Part shown: positions 3,383-18,989 of the stretch, one piece after another | Numbering within the stretch: position 1 is the stretch's first letter | How the letters are laid out: each line of letters begins with the position of its first letter | Source of the DNA: Euzebya tangerina | GTDB taxonomy: Bacteria > Actinomycetota > Nitriliruptoria > Euzebyales > Euzebyaceae | Reading direction: 5' to 3' | Length of the DNA stretch: 64,000 nt | Assembly: GCF_003074135.1 (NCBI RefSeq) | Contig: NZ_PPDK01000001.1 | Coordinates: 2,790,001-2,854,000 of the forward strand | Notes under the pieces: generated by a model | The model's input: only the letters and a program-made list of their open reading frames with translations | What the model was told of the DNA's origin: nothing | Databases searched by the model: none | Program-made: the position numbers and the translations under genes

Positions 3383-4125
3383 ATCCACGCCAGCGGCGGG
3401 GAGCTCTACTGGTGGTCATCAGCATCGTCGGTGCGATCGCGGTGTTCGTCTCGGTGTCCGGGTTCGTCGCCGATGTCCGACAGCAGGTCGGCCCCATGAC
3501 GACGGTCGTCCGTCTGACGACCGACGTTCCTGCGTTCGCGCCCATCCCCCCCGACGCCGTGGAGGTGCTGGAGGTCCCGGTGCTGTGGCAGCCGCCCTTG
3601 GCGATCGAGTCCCCCGACGAGATGGCCGGGCTGGTTCCCGGCCTGGCGTTGCCCGTCGGCTCCGTCCTCGAGGAGAGCGACCTGCAGCCACCACCCGCCG
3701 TTCAGGAGGGCATGCGGCAGATCGCCATCACCGTGGACGCCGAGACCGGCGTGGCCGGTGAGATCGGGGTCGGCGACGTCGTGGACATCATCGCGACCAG
3801 GCAGGGGTTCGCCGGTCAGAACCCGAGCGCGGAGATCGCCATCGAGGCGGCGCAGATCCTGTCCATCGGGACGCCGCGCCCCGACGTGCCCGACGCGGGC
3901 CTGATCGAGCAGGCCGGTCAGGAGCTGTTGCCCGACTTCGGCAACAACGTCGTGCCGGTCACCTTCAATCTGCCGACCAGCGACGTCCTGCGGTTGGCCT
4001 ACGTCGAGAGCTTCGCCACCAGCGTCCGCCTGGCGTTGCGCTCACCGACGGACTTCTCCCAGCTCGCGACGCCGGACCGGATCTACGCGCCGTCGAGCAG
4101 CATCGCGGAGGAGGGGGACTCGTGA
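3379..4125 (+). CDS. cpaB: Flp pilus assembly protein CpaB/RcpC
   Basis: 248 aa from ATG at 3379, overlapping the preceding stop codon. An N-terminal membrane anchor (residues about 8-30) is followed by a SAF-like beta-clip region: residues around 48-100 carry the PAFAPIPPDAVEV and LPVGSVLEESDL patterns typical of CpaB. The rest is the RcpC-type C-terminal domain. CpaB is an envelope component of Tad pili, thought to link the machine to the cell wall in bacteria lacking a secretin. The start of the next gene (GTG at 4122) overlaps its stop. Identification is by domain layout and locus. Confidence 0.85.
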   Translation: MNPRQRRGALLVVISIVGAIAVFVSVSGFVADVRQQVGPMTTVVRLTTDVPAFAPIPPDAVEVLEVPVLWQPPLAIESPDEMAGLVPGLALPVGSVLEESDLQPPPAVQEGMRQIAITVDAETGVAGEIGVGDVVDIIATRQGFAGQNPSAEIAIEAAQILSIGTPRPDVPDAGLIEQAGQELLPDFGNNVVPVTFNLPTSDVLRLAYVESFATSVRLALRSPTDFSQLATPDRIYAPSSSIAEEGDS

Positions 4126-5627
4126 TCTCGGTCATCCTGGCCACGGCCCAGCAGCGGCACACCGCCGAGCTGGGCGACCTGGCCAGCGAATCGGGCGTGT
4201 TCACGGTGGCCGACGTGGCGGCGGACAGCGGCTCCCTGATGACGGCGCTCGAGGTCTCCGACTACGACGTCGTCCTGCTCGATGCCGAGATCGGGCCTCT
4301 GGCGGCCTTCGACGTGGCCCGGGCCCTCGGGCAGCAGTTTCCTGACACCGCCCTGGTCCTCGTGGCTGCCGACACGGGTCCGGAGCTGCTCGAACGTGCC
4401 ATGAACGCCGGCTTCCGCGGTGTCGTCAACCTGCCGCTGGAGCTGGAGGATGTCACCACCAAGGTCGAGCTGGCCGGCACCTGGTCTCGTCGGCTTCGTG
4501 GCCGGCTGAACGACCCCGAGGACGAGCGGCCCGGTCGCATGATGGTCTTCGCCGGCGCCAAGGGCGGTGTGGGCACGACGACGCTGGCCACCCACGTCGC
4601 GCTCGAGACCCAACTCGCCAACCCCGACCGCCGGGTCTGCCTGGCCGACTTCGACCTGCAGGCAGGCGACGTCAAGACCCTGCTCGATCTCAGCCACCAT
4701 CGCAGCGTCGATGACCTGGTCGAGGTGGCGCAGGACGTGACGGCCCGACACCTCAACGATGCGCTGTTTGCCCATCCCTCCGGTCTCCGCGTGCTCCTCC
4801 CGCCCCCGCAAGGCGAGTTCGAGACCGACATCACCCCCGAGGTCGCCCGGGGCATCCTCGGCGCGGTCAGGACCCGCTTCGACCTGGTGGTGGTCGACGT
4901 CGGGACCGTCATGACCGACGGCGGCTCGATGGCCACGGAGCTCGCGGACGAGGTGCTGCTGGTGGTCACCCCCGACGTCCTCAGTCTGCGAAGCGCCGCG
5001 CGTCTCACGGCACTCTGGGAGCGCCGACGCCATCGGAAGGGTGGGATCACCGTGGTGCTGAACCGGTCCAGCCGCGACACCGAGGTCCAGGCGGACCTGG
5101 TGAGTCGGGTGCTCGAGATGGAGGTCCTCGACGCCACCATCCCGTCGGTGTTCCGGGAGCTCGAACCGGCGGTCAACTCCGGCATCGAAGAGCACCTCGA
5201 GGACGGGCCGATCCGCTCCGCGATCCTCGGCCTGTGTCGGGAGCTCAAGCTGATCCGACCGCAGGAGCGACGGTCGTTCTTCGGTCGCGGAGGCGATGAC
5301 TCCGGACAGGCGACGATCGAGGCGCTGGGGATCTTGCCCTGGGCGCTGCTGATCATCCTGGTGTTCTGGCAGCTCGCGGTCATGGGCTGGACCTACTCCT
5401 GGGGTGAGCACGCCGTCCGCGAGGCGGCCCGGGAGCTTGCGATCGGCGGGCCGGTCGAGCAGACCGTCCGTGAGGAGCTGCCGGTGTCGATGCACGACGG
5501 GCTGCAGGTGCGCTCGGGGCTGAGCACCGTCCAGGCCCAGATCAGGGTGCCGATCCTGGTTCCCGATTGGCTCTCCCCCTGGTCGATCACCGTGCAGCAG
5601 GGCACCATCAGGGAGCGAGGCCTATGA
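4122..5627 (+). CDS. CpaE/TadZ ATPase fused to a TadE-like pseudopilin
   Basis: 501 aa, about 100 longer than usual for CpaE. Residues 1-120 form a receiver-like domain with LLDAE at the phospho-acceptor position. Residues 140-380 are the ParA-like TadZ ATPase, with deviant Walker A KGGVGTTT from K147. The last 107 residues are a TadE-like pseudopilin. It has a class III-type processing site G395|QATIE400 with the diagnostic Glu at +5, then a hydrophobic helix and a VREAARELA amphipathic stretch. I see no internal ATG or GTG that would start the pseudopilin separately, so the fusion looks real unless there is a sequencing error. Peptidase cleavage after G395 could release the pseudopilin from the ATPase (inference). 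GTG start, with 4-base overlaps to both neighbours. Confidence 0.85.
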   Translation: MISVILATAQQRHTAELGDLASESGVFTVADVAADSGSLMTALEVSDYDVVLLDAEIGPLAAFDVARALGQQFPDTALVLVAADTGPELLERAMNAGFRGVVNLPLELEDVTTKVELAGTWSRRLRGRLNDPEDERPGRMMVFAGAKGGVGTTTLATHVALETQLANPDRRVCLADFDLQAGDVKTLLDLSHHRSVDDLVEVAQDVTARHLNDALFAHPSGLRVLLPPPQGEFETDITPEVARGILGAVRTRFDLVVVDVGTVMTDGGSMATELADEVLLVVTPDVLSLRSAARLTALWERRRHRKGGITVVLNRSSRDTEVQADLVSRVLEMEVLDATIPSVFRELEPAVNSGIEEHLEDGPIRSAILGLCRELKLIRPQERRSFFGRGGDDSGQATIEALGILPWALLIILVFWQLAVMGWTYSWGEHAVREAARELAIGGPVEQTVREELPVSMHDGLQVRSGLSTVQAQIRVPILVPDWLSPWSITVQQGTIRERGL

Positions 5628-5977
5628 GACGACTGCATGAGCGTGACGAGGGCAGCTACATCATGGAACTGCTCGGGTTCCTGCCCGCCTTCGCGATCGT
5701 GGCGATCCTCGCCTTCCAGTTGGCCGCGATCGGTGGCGCCGCCGTCGCCGCCGAGAACGCCGCACGCACCGGTAGCCGCGCGGCCTCGCTCGGCATCAGT
5801 CCGCGCAACGCCGCGATGTCGGCCCTCGACCCGGATCAGCGCCGGTACGCCAGGGTCAGCGGGGGCCTGGGCGGTGTCACCGTGGTTCTCGACGTGCCCG
5901 TGGTCATCCCCGGCATCGACCTGAACGTCGTCACGATCCGACGCAGCGCCCACCTCCCACCGCGGTTCGGATCCTGA
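5624..5977 (+). CDS. TadE/TadF-like pseudopilin
   Basis: 117 aa from ATG at 5624, overlapping the previous stop (ATGA). A short basic leader ends at G10, followed by SYIME with Glu at +5. This is the class III prepilin cleavage site G|xxxxE, and a hydrophobic helix follows at residues about 16-38. The remaining 75 residues are a small extracytoplasmic domain with NAARTGSRAA, as in TadE/F proteins. These are minor pseudopilins processed by the TadV peptidase. It follows directly after the CpaE-TadE fusion, so two TadE-type units are made from consecutive genes. Confidence 0.85.
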   Translation: MRRLHERDEGSYIMELLGFLPAFAIVAILAFQLAAIGGAAVAAENAARTGSRAASLGISPRNAAMSALDPDQRRYARVSGGLGGVTVVLDVPVVIPGIDLNVVTIRRSAHLPPRFGS

Positions 5978-5979
5978 TC

Positions 5980-7305
5980 ATGGCCCGGCCGACGGACCAG
6001 GAGTTGGGCGCGACCCGCAACGGCGGTCAGGGCGGCGAGCTCGACGTCCGCCGCTACCGCGAGATGCTGCTCCAGGAAGTGGACCTGGACGAGCTGGACC
6101 GCCTCTCCAGCACACAGCGCCGGGCACGACTGGAGCGGCTGGTCGGCCACATCATCAGCCGCGACGGTCCCATCATGTCCTCGACGGAGCGGCGCAACCT
6201 CATCCGCCGAATCGTCGACGAGGCGCTTGGGCTCGGTGTCCTCGAGCCGCTGCTGGCCGACCCCAACGTGACCGAGATCATGGTCAACGGGCCGAACCAG
6301 GTGTACGTCGAGCGGGCCGGTACGTTGACGCTGTCCAACTCCCGGTTCTCCTCCGAGGAGCAGATGTACCAGACGATCGATCGGATCGTCAGCCAGGTCA
6401 ACCGACGTGTCGACGAAGCCAGTCCCATGGTCGATGCACGCCTGCCAACCGGCGAGCGGGTGAACGTGATCATCCCGCCGCTGTCGCTGAACGGGCCGGT
6501 CCTGACGATCCGGCGGTTCCCCCGGGCCTTCACGATGGCCCAGCTGGCCGAGATGGGGTCGGTGGACGAGGCGACCATGTGGCTCCTGCGGTCCATGGTC
6601 GAGGTGCGGTGCAACATCATCATCGCCGGGGGTACGGGCACCGGGAAGACCACGTTCCTGAACTCCCTGTCCGGCTACATCGGGGCCAGCGAGCGGATCG
6701 TCACGATCGAGGACTCCGCCGAACTGCAACTGCAGCAGCCACACGTCGTCCGCCTGGAGTCCCGTCCTCCCAACGTGGAGGGCAAGGGCCAGGTCACGAT
6801 CCGCGACCTGGTCAAGAACAGCCTGCGCATGCGCCCCGACCGGATCATCGTCGGGGAGGTTCGCGGGGGCGAGACCCTCGACATGCTGCAGGCCATGAAC
6901 ACCGGGCACGAGGGATCGCTCTGCACGGTGCACGCCAACTCCGTCGACGATGCGATCCTGCGTCTCGAGACCCTCGCGTCGATGACCGAACTGGACATCG
7001 CCTTCGAAGCGCTCCGAGACCAGATCAGCGGTGCCGTGGACGCCCTGGTCCACCTGCGCCGCTATCCCGACGGATCCCGTCGGGTGGCCCAGATCGCCGT
7101 CACCGCGTCGCAGGATCGCAAGACCTTCCAGTTGGATCCGGTCATGACCTTCGAGGCCGATCCCATGGAGGCTGAGCGGCGGGTCACCGGCCGGGTGAAG
7201 CACGGCTCGATCCCCGCCTGGCTGGCAGAGCGGTTCCGCCTGGCGTCCATCAGCCTGCACCCCGTGTTCCGTGCGGCACCCGAGCCGGAGGCGGTCGGCC
7301 GGTGA
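5980..7305 (+). CDS. cpaF: Tad secretion ATPase CpaF/TadA
   Basis: 441 aa from ATG at 5980. This is a type II/IV secretion-family hexameric ATPase that powers Flp pilus polymerisation at the cytoplasmic face. Visible motifs are [11 protein letters not shown] in the N-terminal domain, Walker [10 protein letters not shown] at residues 217-225, the Asp-box [12 protein letters not shown], Walker [17 protein letters not shown] and a His-box [10 protein letters not shown]. Length and order match CpaF. It overlaps tadB by 4 bases (GTGA). It sits between the pseudopilin genes and the two platform proteins, as in classic tad operons. Confidence 0.95.
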
Positions 7306-8231
7306 CGTCATCGGTCATCCTGGCCCTGCTGGCGGCAACCCTCCTCGTCGCCGTCGTCGGGATCGCGGTGATGGCGCGTGCCAGCAGCTCGCGCAGTCTG
7401 GCCTATCGCCGAGCCAAGCTGAACCTGCGCCGTCCGGCGGTCGGCCCCGGGCGGTCCCGCTTCGACAAGCTGGTGTCGAGCGTGGCCCTCGGACGGTCCG
7501 TCTCGCGACGACTGGACGCTGCCGGGCGCACCGACCTGCTGGCCGGCGACGTCGTGGCCGTGGCACTGCTGGCCGCCGCCGGTGTCATCTACCTGCTGAG
7601 CAGCGTCGTGACGGTCGGCGCCGCAACCGTCGTCGCGCTCGGCCTGCTGCTCGTCGCCAACCAGTACCTGAACTACCTCGTGCAGAAGCGGATCGACGCG
7701 TTCTCGGACCAACTTCCCGACATCGCGCTGGTCATGTCCAATGCCGCCGGTGCCGGCATCGCCATCCCCAACGCCCTGCAGCTGACCGCGAACGAGATGG
7801 CCGAACCAGCTGCGTCGCTGCTGCAGCACGCCGTTCGTGAGCTCGCGGTCGGCGCGTCGCTGGCGGACGCCATGGACTCGCTCAAGGAGCGTGTGCCCTC
7901 GCGCGAGATGTCGGTGCTCGTCTCCACGCTGATCATCCAGCAGCGGGCGGGCGGTGATGTGATCGAGGCGCTCCGCGAGATGTCGACCAACCTCGAGCAG
8001 CGACGAGATCTGCGTCGCGAGGTCCGCACCGTGATGTCAGGCGTCCGCTTCACCGCCTACGCCATCATGGGCCTTGGAACCGGCTCCCTGCTGCTCATCG
8101 AGTCCTTGCGCTCCGGAACCCTTCAACGCATGACCTCGAGCTTGGCTGGCCAACTCATCCTCATCGCTGCGTTCGGGTTCTTCTTCATCGGCTTCCTCGC
8201 CGTTCGCCGATTGTCACGGGTGGACGTATGA
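7302..8231 (+). CDS. tadB: Tad pilus inner-membrane platform protein TadB
   Basis: 309 aa, GTG start overlapping the cpaF stop. An N-terminal membrane helix, then a pair of helices around residues 85-115, a cytoplasmic T2SF/GspF-like domain (FSDQLPDIALVMSNAAGAG, typical of TadB) and two C-terminal membrane helices. TadB and TadC form the membrane platform on which CpaF acts. It overlaps tadC by 4 bases, so the three are translationally coupled. Confidence 0.9.
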   Translation: MTSSVILALLAATLLVAVVGIAVMARASSSRSLAYRRAKLNLRRPAVGPGRSRFDKLVSSVALGRSVSRRLDAAGRTDLLAGDVVAVALLAAAGVIYLLSSVVTVGAATVVALGLLLVANQYLNYLVQKRIDAFSDQLPDIALVMSNAAGAGIAIPNALQLTANEMAEPAASLLQHAVRELAVGASLADAMDSLKERVPSREMSVLVSTLIIQQRAGGDVIEALREMSTNLEQRRDLRREVRTVMSGVRFTAYAIMGLGTGSLLLIESLRSGTLQRMTSSLAGQLILIAAFGFFFIGFLAVRRLSRVDV

Positions 8232-9103
8232 GCGCCGGATTCGCCGGACTGCTCGCGCTGGGCAGCTACGTCGTCGGGATCCTCGGATTCCGCATGATGC
8301 GCACGCCACCGGAGTCACTGCGTGACTACGATCCGCGCCAGGGAAGCACGAGGACCTCGTTGGTGGGCAAGGTCAGGGCGGCCGTCGGCCGGCGCTTCGG
8401 CCCCTTCGTCCTCGATCTGCTGAGCCCACGGTCCCGGGCACGACTCAACCGGCACCTGGCCGCGTCAGGCCGAGCGCCGGGTCAGACGCTGAACGACGTG
8501 GCGGCGACCAAGGCAGCAGACGTCTTCACCACCAGCCTCCTCGGGGTCGGGGCGACGCTGTACTGGGTGCCGCTGCTGCCGCTGCTGATGGTGTACGGCT
8601 GGTTCCGGATCAACCTGACGCTGCGCCAGGAAGCCAAGGCCCGCCAGACGCGGATCGAACGAGACCTCCCGGACTTCCTCGATGTGCTCAGCGTGACCGT
8701 CCAGTCGGGCATGAAGTTCCGCACGGCACTTCGCCGTGTGGAGGAGCGCTTCGACTCGCCCGTCGCCGAGGAGTTCCGCACCGCCCTGCGACAGATGGAC
8801 GTCGGCGCCTCCCGACGGGAGGCCTTCCAGGGGGTCCGCGACCGCAACCCGAGCCCCTCCATGAACCGCTTCATCGGGGCACTGCTCCAAGCCGAGGAGC
8901 TCGGCTCGCCCCTCACCGACGCGATGGGGGCCATCTCCAAGGACATGCGCAAGGCCTTCGGTCAGAGCGTCCGAAAGCGAGCCGCGGAGGCGGCGCCGAA
9001 GGTGAGCCTCGTCGCGACGGTCATCCTGATGCCGGGCGCCGCACTGCTGCTGATCGGCGGCCTCATCATCGGCGGCAACATCACCGTTCCGGGGGGCGGG
9101 TAG
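8228..9103 (+). CDS. tadC: Tad pilus inner-membrane platform protein TadC
   Basis: 291 aa from ATG at 8228. One N-terminal helix, a central pair of helices (about residues 95-125), a T2SF domain with RDLPDFLDVLSVTVQSGMKFRTAL, and a glycine-rich C-terminal helix. It is the partner of TadB in the assembly platform. The next gene, a histidine kinase, starts 3 bases after the stop, so the regulatory pair is probably co-transcribed with the machine. Confidence 0.9.
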   Translation: MSAGFAGLLALGSYVVGILGFRMMRTPPESLRDYDPRQGSTRTSLVGKVRAAVGRRFGPFVLDLLSPRSRARLNRHLAASGRAPGQTLNDVAATKAADVFTTSLLGVGATLYWVPLLPLLMVYGWFRINLTLRQEAKARQTRIERDLPDFLDVLSVTVQSGMKFRTALRRVEERFDSPVAEEFRTALRQMDVGASRREAFQGVRDRNPSPSMNRFIGALLQAEELGSPLTDAMGAISKDMRKAFGQSVRKRAAEAAPKVSLVATVILMPGAALLLIGGLIIGGNITVPGGG

Positions 9104-11148: not shown

Positions 11149-11367
11149 ATGAACGCAGTGATCAACCTCTACCTGACAACCCTCTCGCTCGTCGACGGCC
11201 TGCGCGATCGCCTGGCCGACGAGGAGGGCCAGACCACGATGGAGTGGCTGGGCATCGCCGCCGTGCTCGTCGCCATCCTCGTGGCCTTCGCCGGCCTGGG
11301 CGGGGACATCGCCGACTTCCTGCGGGCCACCTTCGAGCGGCTGGTCAACACCATCACCGGCGCCTAG
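11149..11367 (+). CDS. flp: Flp-type major pilin
   Basis: 72 aa from ATG at 11149, with an AAGGGA ribosome site 8 bases upstream. Class III prepilin: the leader ends at G27, followed by QTTMEW with Glu (E32) at +5. A 22-residue hydrophobic helix and a short tail then end at NTITGA. After cleavage the mature pilin would be 45 residues, normal for Flp. It is exported and polymerised by the CpaF/TadB/TadC machine encoded upstream. A strong hairpin follows directly after the stop (11395-11419) and should make this the most abundant product of the cluster. The leader-cleavage sequence closely resembles that of the large protein at 16877-18274. Confidence 0.93.
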   Translation: MNAVINLYLTTLSLVDGLRDRLADEEGQTTMEWLGIAAVLVAILVAFAGLGGDIADFLRATFERLVNTITGA

Positions 11368-11432: not shown

Positions 11433-12812
11433 ATGGCGCTCATGGTCGTGTTGGTCGTCGGCTGCACCTCCGACGGGGACCCAGCAGCCACCGCGTCGGC
11501 GACGGCCCCCGCGGTGGTGGTGACCGAGACCGCACCGGGTCCGGCTACTGCCTCGACGCCGACGGAGGAGCCGACCTCCGAACCATCCGACGAGCCGACG
11601 GAGGAGCCGACCGAGGATGCGACGGCCTACCCCGACGCCCCCGGCCTGATCATCCCCGAGGGGTCCGTCGCGACGTGTGAGCTGGCCGGTCCCGAGTTCT
11701 GCCAGGACAGCAACGGCAACTTCTTCCCCGACTTCGTGGATGAGCAGTTGGGTCTTGACCCGACCGTGCTCCCGTGCCGTGACGTGGACTGTCCCGGTGT
11801 CCTGCCAGGGGACGCGACACTCGAGGGACTGAATCAGAACACCCTGTTCATCCTGGACGCGTCCGGGTCGATGGCGGGTCAGGTCGGCGGCGAGACGAAG
11901 ATGGCGGCAGCCAAGGCGGCCCTGGTGGAGTACGTCAGCATCACGCCGGAGTTGGTCGACATCGGCTTGGTCGTCTACGGCCATCAGGGCGACAACACCG
12001 ACGCGGGACGGGCCGAGTCCTGTGCGGGCGTCGAGACCTTCGCCGAGATCGGGGAGCTCAGCTTCGACACCGTCGAGGCGACCGTGGCGCAGTTCGAGCC
12101 GACAGGGTGGACGCCCATCGCGACCTCGTTGGAGTCCGCGGGACCGCTGTTGACCGACGCCGTGGCCGCGGACGCAGCAGAGGGCATCGACGCACCGACC
12201 AATCGGGTGGTGCTGATCTCCGACGGGCTGGAGACGTGTGACGGTGACCCGGTGGCCGCCGCCCAATCGCTGATCGGTCAGGGCATCGACCTGGTCGTTG
12301 ATGTCATCGGCTTCGACATCCCCGACGCCGACCGATCCGCGCTGGAACAGGTCGCCACGGTCACGGGGGGCACCTACTCCGATGTCGGCAACGGTGACGC
12401 ACTGCGAGATGCCCTCGACGTGTACAGCGATCAGTTCTTCGCCGCGGCGGACGCCATCAACTGCCGGGTGGAGGCCGTCGGCCAGACCACCACGTGTGGG
12501 CAGGCCATCCGGATCGAGGGCCGTGATCTCATCCGGGACCTGGCACGTGAGGCGGGTGATGCCGGCGATGCTGATCGCGAGCGGTTCCTGACAGCCTGGG
12601 GCGCGACGGCGCAGCAGGAGAACCTGGATGCCGAGGAGGCCTACGAGGACGAGATCCTGGCCGAGTTGGAGGAGTACCGGGCGCTGATCCAGGACGCTCT
12701 GGCCCGGCGTGAGGAGCTGCGGGCTGGCGGGAGCAAGGTGGCAGCCGCACCGGCATCGACCTGTCCGCTTGTCCCGCACGCCGACCTGGCACCGCAGGGC
12801 GGACCGGTGTGA
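11433..12812 (+). CDS. VWA-domain lipoprotein of the pilus locus
   Basis: 459 aa from ATG at 11433; ATG at 11442 is the alternative, and neither has a good ribosome site. A short hydrophobic leader ends in a lipobox VVGC (C11), so it is predicted to be lipidated and surface-exposed. Residues 15-65 are a Thr/Glu/Pro-rich spacer. The von Willebrand A domain starts near residue 138 with an intact MIDAS D142ASGS and a conserved ISDGLETC. The C-terminus is a Glu-rich, probably helical region. VWA proteins act as metal-dependent adhesins or assembly factors and occur at tips of other Gram-positive pili. The gene is coupled to the TadG-like gene by a 4-base overlap. Confidence 0.78.
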   Translation: MALMVVLVVGCTSDGDPAATASATAPAVVVTETAPGPATASTPTEEPTSEPSDEPTEEPTEDATAYPDAPGLIIPEGSVATCELAGPEFCQDSNGNFFPDFVDEQLGLDPTVLPCRDVDCPGVLPGDATLEGLNQNTLFILDASGSMAGQVGGETKMAAAKAALVEYVSITPELVDIGLVVYGHQGDNTDAGRAESCAGVETFAEIGELSFDTVEATVAQFEPTGWTPIATSLESAGPLLTDAVAADAAEGIDAPTNRVVLISDGLETCDGDPVAAAQSLIGQGIDLVVDVIGFDIPDADRSALEQVATVTGGTYSDVGNGDALRDALDVYSDQFFAAADAINCRVEAVGQTTTCGQAIRIEGRDLIRDLAREAGDAGDADRERFLTAWGATAQQENLDAEEAYEDEILAELEEYRALIQDALARREELRAGGSKVAAAPASTCPLVPHADLAPQGGPV

Positions 12813-13999
12813 GACGCTCCCCGTCGCGGCGGTCCGTCTGGCAGGGATCCGCCTGGCAGGCGTCTGCGCTGCAGCGAGACCAGGGGACCGTCGCGCCGCT
12901 GTTCATGGTGATCATCTGGCTCACGCTGCTGATCGGGGTCCTGTTCTTCCAGACCGGTCGCGCGTCGGATCTCGGGGCCGAGGCCCAGACCGGCTCGGAT
13001 GCGGCGGCGCTTGCCGGCGCGGAGGACATCCGACTGCAGATCCTCGAGTGGATGGCATCGGGCGGCTTCTCCCGGGGCCCCTTCGTCCTCAACCAGCCGC
13101 GTGCGTTCGCGGCCTCCAGCCGCTACGCGGCGATCAACAGCACGCGCATGATCGACTTCTCGATCCGCCGGGAGGGCTACCTGCAGTACCGGGTCAGCGT
13201 CGAGACGACCACCTACAGGCGACTGCCGGACGCCGGGTTCGACAGCACCGGGGTGGATGGAGTGGGTGATGCGGAGTTCTCGGTCGGCAACAGCGAACGT
13301 GGACGGCAGTCCGCCGCCGCCGTGGTGCGCATCGGACCATCGGTGTTCCTGTCCGAGGGCGGCTTCTGGTCCTCGACGACCGGTGAGGGCCACTTCGTCG
13401 CGGACCAGACCGCCAGTGCCGGCGTGCTCCCGCAGGGCGGTGGCGGGTCTGCCGTGGGGACCACGACCAGCGGCGGCTGTGCGATCGGGCGGAGCGAGTT
13501 GAACAGCCTGGCGGCCGAAGCCGGGGTGACCGAGGAGTTCGCCGGGCGGTCGGCGCTGGCCAGGTACAGCGACTGCGACGGCGGCGTGTCCGTCGCACCG
13601 CTGACACGGCCGATGAAGATCTCACTGCTGCGCCTCGAGAATGCGATGAACGAGCCGCTGAACCTCAACAGCGCCTACCGGTCACCGGCATATCAGGCCC
13701 AGTTGTGCGAGCGCGTCAACGGCCCGTGTGCCCCGCCGGGCCAGTCCATGCACAACTTCGGGTTGGCGGTCGACGTGCAGAACTGGCGTGCCGCCACGGT
13801 TGCGATCAACCTCGAGCCGACCATCGGGCTGTGCCAGCCGCTGCCCAGCAACGACGCCGTCCACTTCGTGCACAACTCCGGGCGCGAGTGCGGAGGATCC
13901 ACCGGCACATCTGGCGGCACCTCGGGGATCTCCGGTCCGTTCAGCAGCCTCGGCGGGTTCGGTGCACAGGGCCTGCTGTCGGTGCGACTGGTCGAGTAG
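12809..13999 (+). CDS. TadG-like pilus protein fused to a VanY/M15 peptidase domain
   Basis: 396 aa, GTG start overlapping the previous stop. Residues 22-60 match a TadG-type N-terminus: RDQGTVAPLF, a membrane helix, then a segment rich in Ala/Asp ending SDAAALAGAEDI. The C-terminal 150 residues form a D,D-carboxypeptidase/VanY-type M15 domain. Its zinc ligands are visible as SMH315xxGLAVD322 and DAVH352F, with an AYRSPAYQ segment before them. The fold hydrolyses peptidoglycan stem peptides. Tethered to a pilus protein, it could open or anchor in the cell wall where the pilus emerges (inference). A Gly/Ser/Thr-rich tail follows. Confidence 0.8.
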   Translation: MRRSPSRRSVWQGSAWQASALQRDQGTVAPLFMVIIWLTLLIGVLFFQTGRASDLGAEAQTGSDAAALAGAEDIRLQILEWMASGGFSRGPFVLNQPRAFAASSRYAAINSTRMIDFSIRREGYLQYRVSVETTTYRRLPDAGFDSTGVDGVGDAEFSVGNSERGRQSAAAVVRIGPSVFLSEGGFWSSTTGEGHFVADQTASAGVLPQGGGGSAVGTTTSGGCAIGRSELNSLAAEAGVTEEFAGRSALARYSDCDGGVSVAPLTRPMKISLLRLENAMNEPLNLNSAYRSPAYQAQLCERVNGPCAPPGQSMHNFGLAVDVQNWRAATVAINLEPTIGLCQPLPSNDAVHFVHNSGRECGGSTGTSGGTSGISGPFSSLGGFGAQGLLSVRLVE

Positions 14000-14068: not shown

Positions 14069-15460
14069 ATGGGACACAACCGCGGGAGAACCGGGGGCAG
14101 CCCCGCAACGTGGGGCGTGACCGGCCGGCCGTCCGGCACGGCCCTGGCGTTCGTGCTGCTCACGATCACGCTGCTGGCGGTCGTGCTGCTGGTGTGGACT
14201 GCTGGGACAGCCACGGCGGCGACCACCGAGGAGCCGACCGAGCCACAGCCGGCACCCACCGCCGCGCCGCTCGGCAGCGCACCGGTCCTGCTGATCATCG
14301 ACGCGTCGGGGTCGATGAACGCCGACGACGGGTCAGGACAGCCGAAGATCGAGGCTGCCCGGACCGCGCTGCGCCAACTGGTCGACGAGTTGGGGACCGA
14401 CTCGCAGGTCGGCCTGCGCGCCTACGGCCACCGCACGCCCAACACCGACCGGGAGGCTGGCTGTGCGGACACCGAGCTGCTGGTGCCGGTGTCGAGCGAC
14501 AACATCGATCAGCTCAGGACGGCGGTCGACGGGCTGAGTGCATCTGGCTTCACGCCGATCGGCGCGTCGCTGCGAGCAGCCACCGAGGACCTCGTCGACT
14601 TCGAACAGCGGACCGTCGTCCTGATCAGCGACGGCATCGACACCTGTGCCCCTCCGGCCGCCTGCGATGTGGCTCGCGAGATCGTCGGCGAGGGCGTTGA
14701 GCTTCGCGTGGAGGCGATCGGCTTCCAGGTCGACGACGCCGCCGCTGATGAGTTGCGGTGCATCGCAGAGGTCACGGGCGGCACGTACCGGCCGGCTGAC
14801 AACGCCGAGGACCTGGCCCGAGAGTTGCGCGCCAACGTCCCTACCGGAGAGCCCATCGAAGGTGGGCCCAGTCCCGCCGAGGCGACGCTGATCGGGCCAG
14901 GGCAGTACGTCGATGAGATCTCGTTCCCGGAAGAGCGTTGGTACGCCGTGGACCTGGAACCGGGCGACCGCGTCCGTGCCTCCGCCGCGGTCATCGGCAA
15001 CGACGAGACGCCCTCCATCCCGGCGGCCGAGACCGAGATGATCCTCAGCTTCGTCGATGTGATCGGTTCGACCCCCTGCGACACCGACCGCGTCCGGGGC
15101 ATCGGTCCCCAGACGGTGAACCTGGCCGTCGATGGGCTGCAGGTCGCCGGTGGGACCGTGTGCAGCGAGCCGGGCCGGTACACGATCGGCCTGCGGATCA
15201 TCCCACCCGAGGACTCATCGGAGAGCCGTCCACTGCGGGACGGACTGACGTTACCGATCGAGCTGTTCGTCGCGGTGACCTCATCCACCGTGCTCGACGA
15301 ACCAACTGAGGCACCGGAGCGACCGGAACTCGCAGCTCCGGTCCCGCTGCCACCCGGTCGCCAGCCGACCCCGCCGTCGCTGTACCTGCTGACGATGAGC
15401 GGCTTCGGTCTGGTCGGCGCCCTGCTCGGGGGCTTCTTCTCACGGAAGCTCGGCCCATGA
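14069..15460 (+). CDS. Membrane-anchored VWA-domain protein
   Basis: 463 aa from ATG at 14069. N-terminal signal/anchor helix at about residues 25-50 with an A-x-A-like end, then a Thr/Pro/Glu spacer. The VWA domain has MIDAS D78ASGS and ISDGIDTC. A beta-rich domain of about 170 residues follows, and a C-terminal membrane helix before a basic end (FFSRKLGP). This is a type I surface protein. A TAGCGT hexamer at 14052-14057, 11 bases before the start, may be its own -10. Its VWA domain resembles the one in the lipoprotein at 11433-12812 (TGGTY and GFTPIG-type segments in both), so the two are probably paralogues. Confidence 0.8.
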   Translation: MGHNRGRTGGSPATWGVTGRPSGTALAFVLLTITLLAVVLLVWTAGTATAATTEEPTEPQPAPTAAPLGSAPVLLIIDASGSMNADDGSGQPKIEAARTALRQLVDELGTDSQVGLRAYGHRTPNTDREAGCADTELLVPVSSDNIDQLRTAVDGLSASGFTPIGASLRAATEDLVDFEQRTVVLISDGIDTCAPPAACDVAREIVGEGVELRVEAIGFQVDDAAADELRCIAEVTGGTYRPADNAEDLARELRANVPTGEPIEGGPSPAEATLIGPGQYVDEISFPEERWYAVDLEPGDRVRASAAVIGNDETPSIPAAETEMILSFVDVIGSTPCDTDRVRGIGPQTVNLAVDGLQVAGGTVCSEPGRYTIGLRIIPPEDSSESRPLRDGLTLPIELFVAVTSSTVLDEPTEAPERPELAAPVPLPPGRQPTPPSLYLLTMSGFGLVGALLGGFFSRKLGP

Positions 15461-16143
15461 GGGGTGCGATCCTGGCGATCCTCCTGCTCGGTCTGCTCGC
15501 ACCGGCTGCGTGGGCTCAGTCCCCGACGGAGGAGGTCCTGTCCGTGGAGGGGGCGGCCAACCCGCTGGACGCCCCCACGGTGCAGCCCGGCATGGTCGTC
15601 GACACGATCCTCGAGTCCGAGACGCTGTGGTACGGCATCGACGCCGGCAACGGTCAGACGGTCACGGCCACCGTGACGATCCTGGGACAGCCAGAGGCGC
15701 CGGAGTCCGAACGGACCGACCTCGTCATCGGATTGACGGATCAGCAGCGGCAGACGTTGCAGGAGGACACCGCCCCCTTCGACGGACGGACCGACATCGA
15801 GGTCGTCCTGGCCGACCAGGCGATCCCGCCGATCCCGGGCGGCCTCCCGTTGCTGTCGGTTCAGCTGACCGCCGGTGCTGACCCCAGTGGGCTCGCCGGT
15901 CGAGGCTTCCGGCTGGTGCTCGAGGTCGAGGTCACCGGTGACGCGCAGCCGCTGCCCACGGTCGATGCCGCCCCACCCCCGCAGCAGCCATCGGCGGAGG
16001 CCGGTGCCGACCCGCTGTTCACCGCCCCACCGGCTCCACCGGACGAGCCACCGGACTACGTCGGCGACCTCTTCCCCTTCGCCGCCATCGCGTTGGCCGT
16101 CGGGGCTGTGGCTGGCTTCGAACTGAGCCGGCGGGGCCTGTGA
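15457..16143 (+). CDS. Secreted, membrane-anchored protein of unknown function
   Basis: 228 aa from ATG at 15457, overlapping the VWA gene stop. Clear signal peptide (MRGAILAILLLGLLAPAAWA, likely cleaved before Q). The extracellular part of about 150 residues is beta-rich. A Pro/Ala-rich linker leads to a C-terminal membrane helix near residues 203-222 ending in SRRGL. The extracellular part resembles the post-VWA domain of its upstream neighbour in pattern (a W-YGID / W-YAVD motif followed by G-x-VTA-like strands). The two probably work as a pair at the cell surface. No family name is recognised. Confidence 0.65.
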   Translation: MRGAILAILLLGLLAPAAWAQSPTEEVLSVEGAANPLDAPTVQPGMVVDTILESETLWYGIDAGNGQTVTATVTILGQPEAPESERTDLVIGLTDQQRQTLQEDTAPFDGRTDIEVVLADQAIPPIPGGLPLLSVQLTAGADPSGLAGRGFRLVLEVEVTGDAQPLPTVDAAPPPQQPSAEAGADPLFTAPPAPPDEPPDYVGDLFPFAAIALAVGAVAGFELSRRGL

Positions 16144-16469
16144 GTGCCGCCCTGGTCGTCGACGGCGTTCGCTGCGCACCGCTCGAGGTGGCCGGCGACT
16201 CGGCAGCGCGCCGGCGAGGCCTGCTGGGTCGGGACGGTCTGGAGGGCGCCCTGTGGCTCGCCCCCGCCAAGCAGGTGCACTCGTTTCGGATGCGCTTCGA
16301 CCTCGACATCGCATTCGTCGATCCGACCGGACTGGTCCTGCACGTCCAGGCGCTGCCCCGAAACCGGATCACCCGGATCGTGTGGCGCGCCCGGGGGGTC
16401 ATCGAGGCAGAGCACGGGTCGTTCCTCGCCTGGGGGCTGCAAACCGGAAGCCGCGTCCAACTGCCCTAG
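16140..16469 (+). CDS. DUF192 family protein
   Basis: 109 aa, GTG start overlapping the previous stop. It matches the DUF192 pattern: RRRGLLGRDGLEGALWL, then VHSFRMRFDLDIAFVD and a late LEWxxG-like segment (FLAWGLQTGSRVQLP). Members are small beta-barrel proteins of unknown function, often exported, but this one has no visible signal peptide. It is last in the rightward pilus operon and converges with a leftward gene 21 bases later. A role in the pilus system is inferred only from position. Confidence 0.8.
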   Translation: MSAALVVDGVRCAPLEVAGDSAARRRGLLGRDGLEGALWLAPAKQVHSFRMRFDLDIAFVDPTGLVLHVQALPRNRITRIVWRARGVIEAEHGSFLAWGLQTGSRVQLP

Positions 16470-16490: not shown

Positions 16491-16880
16491 TCAGGCACCG
16501 CGAGGCTCGCGGAGGCCCCCGGCCCACGCCCCGGTCGCGGCGCCCACCACCGGGAGCACGAGCGCGGAGAGGATCGGTGTTGCCGGGCTCTCACCCCACC
16601 CCAGCGCCGCCAGCACGATCGTGACCACGGCGGCCCCGGCGAATCCGGCGGCTGCTGCCGGTGTCCCCAAGCTCAGCTGACGAGCCGTCCTTCGGGCACC
16701 GAGGAAGGCGCCGATCAGGGCAGGAAGCGGCGTCGCCAGGAGCGCCAGCAGTCGGGTCTGGCCGACTGATGTCACCGCAGCGAGGACGCCGATCACAACC
16801 GCGACCAGCAGCCACGCGCCGACGGTCACCGCCAGGGCCATGACCCCTCCGTTCAGCAGGGTGCGGACCTCGGCCGTCAT
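16491..16880 (-). CDS. Small integral membrane protein
   Basis: 129 aa. The start is ATG at 16880, which overlaps the stop of the upstream Flp-leader gene (ATGA); a longer frame to 16904 would overlap more. Four hydrophobic helices are predicted at about residues 12-35, 45-65, 75-95 and 100-120. There is no GxGD prepilin-peptidase motif, so it is not an obvious TadV. Coupling to the large Flp-leader protein suggests a chaperone or membrane partner for it, but that is inference. No family is recognised. Confidence 0.65.
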   Translation of the reverse strand: MTAEVRTLLNGGVMALAVTVGAWLLVAVVIGVLAAVTSVGQTRLLALLATPLPALIGAFLGARRTARQLSLGTPAAAAGFAGAAVVTIVLAALGWGESPATPILSALVLPVVGAATGAWAGGLREPRGA

Positions 16881-18274
16881 GGCCCGCCGGTGCACCCGAT
16901 CCACTCGATGAACCGTCCCGTCTCGGGGTCGTAGTAGGCGGCATCGGTTAGGTCCAACTGGACACCGGTCAGCCCGAGTTCGATTCCGAGCCCCACGACC
17001 AGGCTCACCTGACCCGAGACGGACGCCTCTGCGGCGGTGCGGGTGTAGTTCTCGATCGACACCGTCCCGTGGTCGCGGAGATGGTCCAGCAGAACGTCGG
17101 CCGCCTGCGACAGATCCTCGACGGAGCGGGACCCCACGAAGTCACCCAGCGCGTCGCCGAGCCCCGGAGCCGTCAGGTCCAACTCGGCGGTCACGACCGT
17201 TCGGGAGCCCGTGCCTCCCTGCGCGGTTCCCCTGACGCTTCGAAGCACGTCTGCTGGGTTGGACATCTCCGGGATCGCCGCCACTTCCACGGTCCCCTCT
17301 GACACGCTGATGATCCGAGCGGTCGTCGGGTTGCCGGCCGGGTCGTAGTCGACCTCCAACTGGACCTGCTGACCCCCGCTCGCGCCCACGCCCACCAGAA
17401 TGCCCAACTGGCCGGCCGCTTCCCTGCTGAGATCCAGCTGCAGGGTGCGACTGCCGTCGGCCTTCTCGGTCACGCGGCCATTGGCTGCCACCGATGCATC
17501 CACCTCGGCCACGACCCCGTCAGCCGACCCCTCGACGGTCACACCGGCCTGGCCGTGGGTGCTCTCGGCCTCGCCCTGCGGTCGTTCGGTGCCGACGATC
17601 CAGTCGACGACGTCCCGGGCGCCGACCGCAACGTCCTCGACGAGTGGCGGCAGGATGGTCTCGAGTGCTTCGTCCGTCAGGCGATCCATGATGTAGGCCT
17701 CGGCCTCATCCGGGTCCGTGAACACCCGCGTCTCGCCGACCTCGCCGCCCAGCGCTACGCCCACCTCGGCGCCGATGCCGCCTTCCAGATCCGCCGAGCC
17801 GATATCGATCCCGCCCTCTGCGCCGATGTCGGCCGACACGCCGATCGATCCGCTCTCGACGAACGTCACGTGGATCTGGCCCTGGGCGTCCTCGGAGACG
17901 ATCAGGCCTTTGCCCCCTCCGAGATCGACGAAGCCGATGCGGACCCCCGCCTCGGCGTTGCCGATGAACGTCGAACGGGTGCAGTCCCGCTCCGGCTCTC
18001 CGCTGGGGGCGGCGAAGTCGAATGGCGTGGTCGGTGGCGGGGGAGGAGCTCGGAAGCTGCAGGTGCCGTGCGGATTGCCGCTCGCCATCGCGATGAAGCA
18101 GTTCCACGTCCGCTGGATGTCCCGCCCGAGCGCCGGACCGCTGAGCATCAACGCCAGGATCACGGCAACCGACACGGCGCCGACGCCCAACCACTCCGTG
18201 GTGGTCTGTCCGTCGTCCCGAGCCAGTGCTCGCCGGCATGCCTCTGGGCTGAGCAGGCACGCCAAACGGGACAT
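16877..18274 (-). CDS. Large protein with Flp-type prepilin leader (putative pilus adhesin or tip)
   Basis: 465 aa from ATG at 18274. The N-terminus is a class III prepilin signal: leader ending R19DDG22, then QTTTEW with Glu (E27) at +5, then a hydrophobic helix. It is nearly the same processing site as the 72-aa Flp pilin, but followed by about 400 residues of extracellular domain. A Pro-rich hinge lies near residue 75. After it come Gly-rich, beta-type segments with repeats of the GIGAEVG / GIDIGSAD kind. Ordinary Flp pilins lack such a domain. It could be a minor pilin that caps the fibre or binds a target (inference). It is transcribed away from the lipoprotein behind it and coupled to the membrane protein at 16491-16880. 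Confidence 0.75.
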   Translation of the reverse strand: MSRLACLLSPEACRRALARDDGQTTTEWLGVGAVSVAVILALMLSGPALGRDIQRTWNCFIAMASGNPHGTCSFRAPPPPPTTPFDFAAPSGEPERDCTRSTFIGNAEAGVRIGFVDLGGGKGLIVSEDAQGQIHVTFVESGSIGVSADIGAEGGIDIGSADLEGGIGAEVGVALGGEVGETRVFTDPDEAEAYIMDRLTDEALETILPPLVEDVAVGARDVVDWIVGTERPQGEAESTHGQAGVTVEGSADGVVAEVDASVAANGRVTEKADGSRTLQLDLSREAAGQLGILVGVGASGGQQVQLEVDYDPAGNPTTARIISVSEGTVEVAAIPEMSNPADVLRSVRGTAQGGTGSRTVVTAELDLTAPGLGDALGDFVGSRSVEDLSQAADVLLDHLRDHGTVSIENYTRTAAEASVSGQVSLVVGLGIELGLTGVQLDLTDAAYYDPETGRFIEWIGCTGGP

Positions 18275-18390: not shown

Positions 18391-18933
18391 TCACAGGTCC
18401 GTGACGACCAGGGTGCGCAGAATCTGTTCCATTCGTCCATCGTCGAAGACGGACTGGGGCGCCTTGAGCGAGAGATAGACCAGCTGCTCGGCACCGTCGG
18501 TGGTCGCGAAGACGTCCCACTGCCGATCGCGTGGGGTGTCCGCGGCATCCACGAAGGTGGCGTCGACCAGAATGGCCTCGTCGGCACCCGCGACGTCGAT
18601 GCGTCGCTGGTCCAACTCCTCGTAGTCCTCCGCCACGGTCAGCTTGAACTGCTCGATGACGCCGAACGCCGCCAGCTCGAGATCACCGGACACCGGTCCG
18701 ACCTGCACCTGCAGGCCTTCGGGAACGCCGTCCTCCTCAGCCGTCCCGACGACGTCGACGCGGCCGGGTTGGTTGCCGCGGAGCGTCCAGTCAGGTGGAA
18801 CTGACACCTCGAAGCTGTCCTGCGCGATCGTGGTCCAGGTGTCCGGCACGTCCGCGGTGCCGCCGAACGAGCAGGCCTGCAGGCCCACGATCAGCACCAG
18901 GCTGATGGTCACCGTTCGAGACGCACTTCCCAT
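18391..18933 (-). CDS. Putative lipoprotein
   Basis: 180 aa from ATG at 18933, chosen because it gives a proper signal peptide (MGSASRTVTISLVLIVGLQAC) with lipobox LQAC; the frame stays open to 18984. The mature part contains a PPDWTLR motif and ends in a LYLSLKAP-like beta segment, a pattern like LpqN/photosystem PsbP-like secreted proteins of actinobacteria, but I cannot assign the family firmly. It is divergent from era and forms the upstream end of the leftward block that meets the pilus locus. Confidence 0.7.
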   Translation of the reverse strand: MGSASRTVTISLVLIVGLQACSFGGTADVPDTWTTIAQDSFEVSVPPDWTLRGNQPGRVDVVGTAEEDGVPEGLQVQVGPVSGDLELAAFGVIEQFKLTVAEDYEELDQRRIDVAGADEAILVDATFVDAADTPRDRQWDVFATTDGAEQLVYLSLKAPQSVFDDGRMEQILRTLVVTDL

Positions 18934-18989
18934 GAGATGAACTCTGCCAGACCTGGTCGGCGGAAGCCCTCGGACGGATGTCACACTGC

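Follow-up and report, generated by a model that had tools for sequence, protein, structure and literature searches.

The window analyzed here, a 64,000-nucleotide stretch of Euzebya tangerina DNA, contains a plus-strand Tad locus with genes for CpaE-like, TadE-like, TadA, TadB, and TadC proteins, a histidine kinase, a response regulator, a pilin, vWA proteins, and a TadG-VanY protein. Beyond this locus and divergent from era lies a minus-strand trio of genes encoding a lipoprotein, a large protein with an Flp-type leader (P0001), and a small membrane protein, whose gene shares 28 bases with the 3' end of P0001. Individual features are as follows (the slash marks the predicted cleavage site).

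4122 to 9103, plus strand: Tad core, from the CpaE/TadZ-like gene to TadC (cluster conserved across genomes; TadA search)
5980 to 7305, plus strand: TadA, part of the Tad core
7302 to 8231, plus strand: TadB (Pfam T2SSF match)
8228 to 9103, plus strand: TadC, part of the Tad core
11149 to 11367, plus strand: Flp pilin, 72 amino acids (aa), EEG27/QTTMEW (homologue in the Tad locus of genome G003)
12809 to 13999, plus strand: TadG-like protein with a VanY-like C-terminal region (PF13400 and PF02557)
16491 to 16904, minus strand: small apolar membrane protein, 137 aa (G003 homologue in the same cluster)
16877 to 18274, minus strand: P0001, 465 aa, founder of the aligned family (open reading frame [ORF]; full-length homologues)
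18209 to 18274, minus strand: predicted class III leader of P0001, 22 residues, ending in ARDDG22, after which the cut is predicted (leader alignment; pattern control)
18134 to 18208, minus strand: QTTTEWLG and apolar alpha-1 helix of P0001, residues 23 to 47 (same register as the 72-aa pilin)
16880 to 18133, minus strand: neck and beta-rich body of P0001, residues 48 to 465 (family alignment; invariant cysteines)
18391 to 18984, minus strand: lipoprotein partner, lipobox LQAC, start probably at ATG 18933 (PsbP/Mog1/DcrB-type fold)

Several further details of this region were recorded. The CpaE/TadZ-like ORF (4122 to 5627, plus strand) has a TadE-like pseudopilin segment (SGQATIEALGILPWALLIILVFWQ) at its C terminus and is an apparent CpaE-TadE fusion; the C-terminal end of the CpaE-like ORF at locus L037 also seems TadE-like. 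The TadG-VanY protein joins a Tad component to a wall-peptidase-like (D-Ala-D-Ala carboxypeptidase) domain and has homologues in G003 and G023. A DUF192 gene (16140 to 16469, plus strand) adjoins the region of the Tad genes and P0001 and recurs nearby in G003, G014, G023, G052, and G164.

The reading frame of P0001 starts with an ATG at 18274, and its stop codon ends at 16877, in agreement with the coordinates and the length of 465 aa given in the original prediction; the gene lies on the minus strand. Its high third-position GC content (0.71/0.52/0.85 for the three codon positions) and a full-length homologue (43% identity over residues 13 to 464) encoded by a congeneric genome indicate that P0001 is a real coding gene. 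The N terminus, MSRLACLLSPEACRRALARDDG22/QTTTEWLG, shows the class III prepilin features, namely a G at position -1, an E at +5, and then an apolar helix. Around the cleavage site, 18 of 44 residues are identical to those of the 72-aa pilin in an ungapped alignment. The match between these two leaders, which formed the core of the original prediction, was confirmed by two lines of noncircular evidence (the leader profile, A3, having been built in part from large proteins that it later re-found): (i) in a search of its whole own genome, P0001 matched the 72-aa pilin through the leader alone (residues 10 to 58; E value, 2e-4), together with three more large leader proteins, the last one weakly; and (ii) a strict class III leader pattern occurred in exactly two ORFs of the window, namely P0001 and the pilin, and in none of 30 codon-block shuffles. 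A prepilin peptidase of the A24 type is encoded by a single-copy gene of the same genome, away from the window (PF01478, 60.5 bits, G000:C2:328549).

Past G22, P0001 extends for 443 aa, compared with 43 to 76 aa for the Flp pilins of related genomes, and thus falls outside the length of canonical Flp major pilins (about 45 to 75 aa). The range of 50 to 80 aa initially quoted for Flp pilins is borne out by the pilins read here, but large leader-bearing pilin-like proteins are already known, as described below. Identification of P0001 as TadE, TadF, or TadG was rejected, because its leader follows the Flp pattern GQxxxE[WY] and Pfam gave no match to a TadE or Tad entry.

Neither the P0001 sequence nor a 15-member family profile matched any entry in Pfam, NCBIfam, or the PDB. 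Profile matches were found in 7 of the 66 genomes of the class, one of which (G014) was a match to the leader only, leaving full-length members in 6. The family was found more widely across the phylum, in a sample of 396 genomes in which few candidates were scored per genome. No P0001 homologue was found in viral contigs, and a plasmid search with the G164 family member gave no match. In the alignment of 15 members from 14 genomes, G-1 is shared by all, E+5 occurs in 14, Cys72, Cys98, and Cys461 (P0001 numbering) are invariant, and similarity runs to the C terminus, the last cysteine included. The body is probably disulfide-tied; its AlphaFold model, based on an alignment of two sequences only, had a pLDDT of 38, too low for the model to be used. 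The family members scanned, including P0001, had no vWA match in Pfam. A second copy in the same genome (L011) is unlinked to Tad genes, and the f41-family members likewise lie far from Tad genes.

Many other large proteins with such a leader (here, like P0001, called giants) occur in related genomes, and some in the genome of E. tangerina itself; they include toxin-type bodies. When 19 leaders of pilins and giants were aligned, G-1 and E+5 were the sole invariant positions. The clearest case is P0004 (G003; L015, 12780 to 14579, plus strand), which is located between era and recO and adjoins the Tad locus of its genome. In this protein, an Flp leader precedes a PT-HINT domain (3e-12) and a CdiA-type RNase A domain (RNAse_A_bac, 1e-27), and the neighboring ORF, ending at 14863, belongs to the CdiI_2 immunity family (2e-10). 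P0004 therefore combines the processing domain, toxin domain, and adjacent cognate immunity family of a polymorphic toxin. A plasmid search with P0004 matched only its HINT and RNase A parts. In the genome of E. tangerina, an ORF at L009 (6193 to 7590, minus strand) joins an Flp leader to PT-HINT, with a weak EndoU match. Downstream of it lies a 154-aa ORF (5725 to 6189, minus strand) with no Pfam match, a candidate immunity gene. The same genome carries an Flp-leader ORF at L010 (7308 to 8615, minus strand) with proline-rich and aspartate-rich DDDGIPD-type repeats and no Pfam match.

Domain calls on giants at hand-picked loci in other genomes included RHS bodies in G014 and G046 (Pfam repeats) and in G010 (RHS-like YD repeats, by eye). 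G046 also carries EndoU, calpain, Abhydrolase_8, and DUF6782 metallopeptidase bodies, and further Pfam matches comprised calpain in G095, Abhydrolase_8 in G003, a thermolysin-type (M4) domain in G040, and both Tox-REase-5 and Abhydrolase_8 in G164. All these fusions are in-frame single ORFs with the leader near the N terminus in most; in some giants (e.g., in G164), the frame runs further upstream of the leader and the start is uncertain, and several start codons were guessed. Behind the RHS giant of G046 come two similar membrane proteins of about 260 to 275 aa (both within L037, 9431 to 11591, plus strand), which may be duplicated immunity genes. A separate family of Flp-leader proteins, whose conserved body (YVQYWxYYPDS ... 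DDWES) matched nothing in Pfam, was noted in two further actinobacterial genomes (L142, 700 to 1656, minus strand; L152, 2142 to 3092, plus strand).

P0001-type giants had the lipoprotein as a neighbor at about nine loci (two in the genome of E. tangerina and others in G003, G023, G052, G046, G095, G164, and, by eye, G040). An ORF resembling the small membrane protein of the window was also seen by eye in G023. No lipoprotein was detected beside the giants of f41-family genomes or near the RHS and HINT giants. Since the lipoprotein accompanies P0001-type giants and not RHS or HINT giants, it seems to be tied to the P0001 body rather than to the leader. An AlphaFold model of the window lipoprotein, of moderate confidence (pLDDT, 64; pTM, 0.61), matched the PsbP/Mog1/DcrB/LpqN fold in Foldseek (best E value, 3.5e-7, to PsbP; TM score, about 0.56). 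The Eag chaperones EagT6 and SciW have the same fold, whereas the partner is an exported lipoprotein. A role as an Eag-like chaperone of the pilin helix is not favored, because none was detected beside the toxin giants, which carry this helix as well.

Tad loci contain or adjoin family members or RHS giants in six genomes (G000, G003, G023, G052, G010, and G046), the RHS giants of G046 and G010 being immediate neighbors of Tad genes, and the G164 family member has a TadG-like gene nearby. Prepilin peptidase and TadA were each found in 19 of 20 genomes tested. Two of the 20 are genomes of the same genus in which no giant was found, and both proteins are present there too; being near universal in the genomes tested, these genes are necessary but do not discriminate and lend weak support. 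When 33 giant leaders were compared with Flp pilins taken from 17 genomes, the pilin of the giant's own genome had a mean rank of 2.48 (8.76 in permutations; P = 5e-5); the giant of G176 ranked its own pilin 16th of 17. The residue at +6 follows the same line: in the genus of the window, the pilins and six of the seven giants have W, and in other genomes, 25 of 26 giants have Y. This resemblance supports either a common origin or a common use of giant and pilin leaders; it is not decisive, because shared ancestry or local duplication of leaders would give the same signal.

On this evidence, the preferred reading of P0001 is that of a minor pilin, large and modular, belonging to the neighboring Tad system. 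It appears reasonably probable that the adjacent Tad (type IVc) machinery serves P0001 as a large, modular prepilin of the Flp type. The leader and alpha-1 helix would enter the membrane, a cut after G22 by the prepilin peptidase would follow, and the Tad extension machinery would handle the helix as it does that of the Flp pilin, leading to Tad-dependent export and possibly to incorporation into the fiber. The 400-residue beta-rich body would be exposed on the outside with the PsbP/Mog1-fold lipoprotein, either on the pilus (at its tip or along the fiber) or in the membrane. Conservation of the C terminus argues for a surface device of constant form, as opposed to a variable toxin. The initial proposal of a giant minor pilin exported by the same Tad machine is supported in part, by the Flp-type leader, the lone peptidase, the Tad neighborhood, and the own-pilin resemblance of giant leaders. 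The adhesin role attached to it is just one possibility among several, given that the leader is widely used and often carried by toxin-type bodies.

It is possible, if somewhat doubtful, that P0001 is a tip adhesin, as initially suggested, and so caps the Tad fiber and binds surfaces. A large, presumably extracellular body on a pilin leader beside a Tad locus would fit such a role, for which there are precedents (PMC12607857, PMC12075869, and PMC10191384), but no lectin or other adhesion domain was detected in P0001 by Pfam, vWA being likewise absent, and the patchy presence of full-length members implies that P0001 is not required for Tad pili. Another tentative alternative, equally doubtful, is a pseudopilin-like anchor whose leader is cut but which stays in the cell membrane outside any fiber, its body working at the cell surface with the lipoprotein. 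The recurrence of the lipoprotein and small membrane protein as neighbors and the unlinked copy at L011 speak for this; however, E+5, a residue important for type IV pilin assembly, is kept in 14 of the 15 aligned members, and giant leaders resemble the local pilin.

Improbable, in our view, is a fixed-type antibacterial toxin with the lipoprotein as an immunity protein outside the membrane. In its favor, toxin-type bodies with immunity genes occur among the sister proteins that share its leader, the lipoprotein stands beside P0001-type giants and not RHS or HINT giants, and the distribution is patchy, but no toxin motif was found in P0001, its end is conserved in all 15 members in place of the exchangeable C-terminal domain of polymorphic toxins, and f41 members have no detected lipoprotein. 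Finally, any N-terminal apolar helix resembles a pilin helix to some extent, but a coincidental signal anchor is highly improbable given the absence of the leader pattern from shuffles, the leader-only pilin match in the whole-genome search, and the invariance of G-1 and E+5 across unrelated bodies, the last of which leads us to expect a prepilin peptidase substrate instead.

The reading of P0001 as a modular prepilin can be compared with known systems. P0001 shares with the Flp pilins of Tad (type IVc) pili the G at -1, Q/T-rich positions +1 to +4, E at +5, an aromatic residue at +6, the apolar alpha-1 helix, and adjoining Tad genes, but it has 400 extra residues and invariant cysteines and is not the major subunit. 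Large pilin-like proteins of Tad systems include CpaL of Caulobacter (PMC12607857) and KilN/TadG (PMC12075869). These tip minor pilins resemble P0001 in their prepilin-type leader, large C-terminal module, and Tad association; however, P0001 lacks vWA and has an Flp-like leader, and no search here found a relation. PilB and PilC of Streptococcus sanguinis are modular type IV pilins with a proposed tip location (PMC8179133 and PMC10191384), and CpaL is a further tip candidate. As in P0001 and its sisters, a functional module is pasted onto a pilin leader in these proteins, although the present system is of the Tad/Flp type rather than T4a, and many of its modules are toxins or enzymes and not adhesins.

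The sister giants also resemble polymorphic toxins (PMC3482391), with a trafficking part at the N terminus that stays constant, PT-HINT or RHS, a variable toxin, and an immunity gene; they differ in that the trafficking part is a Tad prepilin leader, and P0001 itself has no variable toxin end. In the searched text of the comprehensive 2012 survey of polymorphic toxin trafficking (PMC3482391), neither pilins nor prepilins are mentioned. A paper on ARC toxins (PMC12605009) names Flp pilins once, in passing, as N-terminal partners of ARC toxin domains, and no systematic description of large or toxin proteins with Flp leaders was found in the open-access literature.

The occurrence of the same leader on other bodies, in this genome and across the phylum, many of them of the polymorphic-toxin type, makes the Flp leader look like a general trafficking module of Actinomycetota and suggests that the Tad machinery handles far more than pilins. 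We put forward, as a hypothesis that is plausible but short of probable, that the Tad pilus of Actinomycetota is a toxin-delivery route. In this scenario, polymorphic toxins would be synthesized as giant prepilins of the Flp type. After processing by the prepilin peptidase, the Tad machinery would export or present them, and HINT self-cleavage would release some, with P0001 and its lipoprotein as a constant accessory or a fixed-type effector. If the leader truly traffics toxins, Tad pili would join the routes of contact-dependent competition, in monoderms, for which few are known, and the way in which Tad pili kill, an issue posed by the Kil system of Myxococcus, could be tested directly. The lipoprotein partner and the Tad locus also provide a function-linked handle on an unannotated protein family that spans several families of Actinomycetota.
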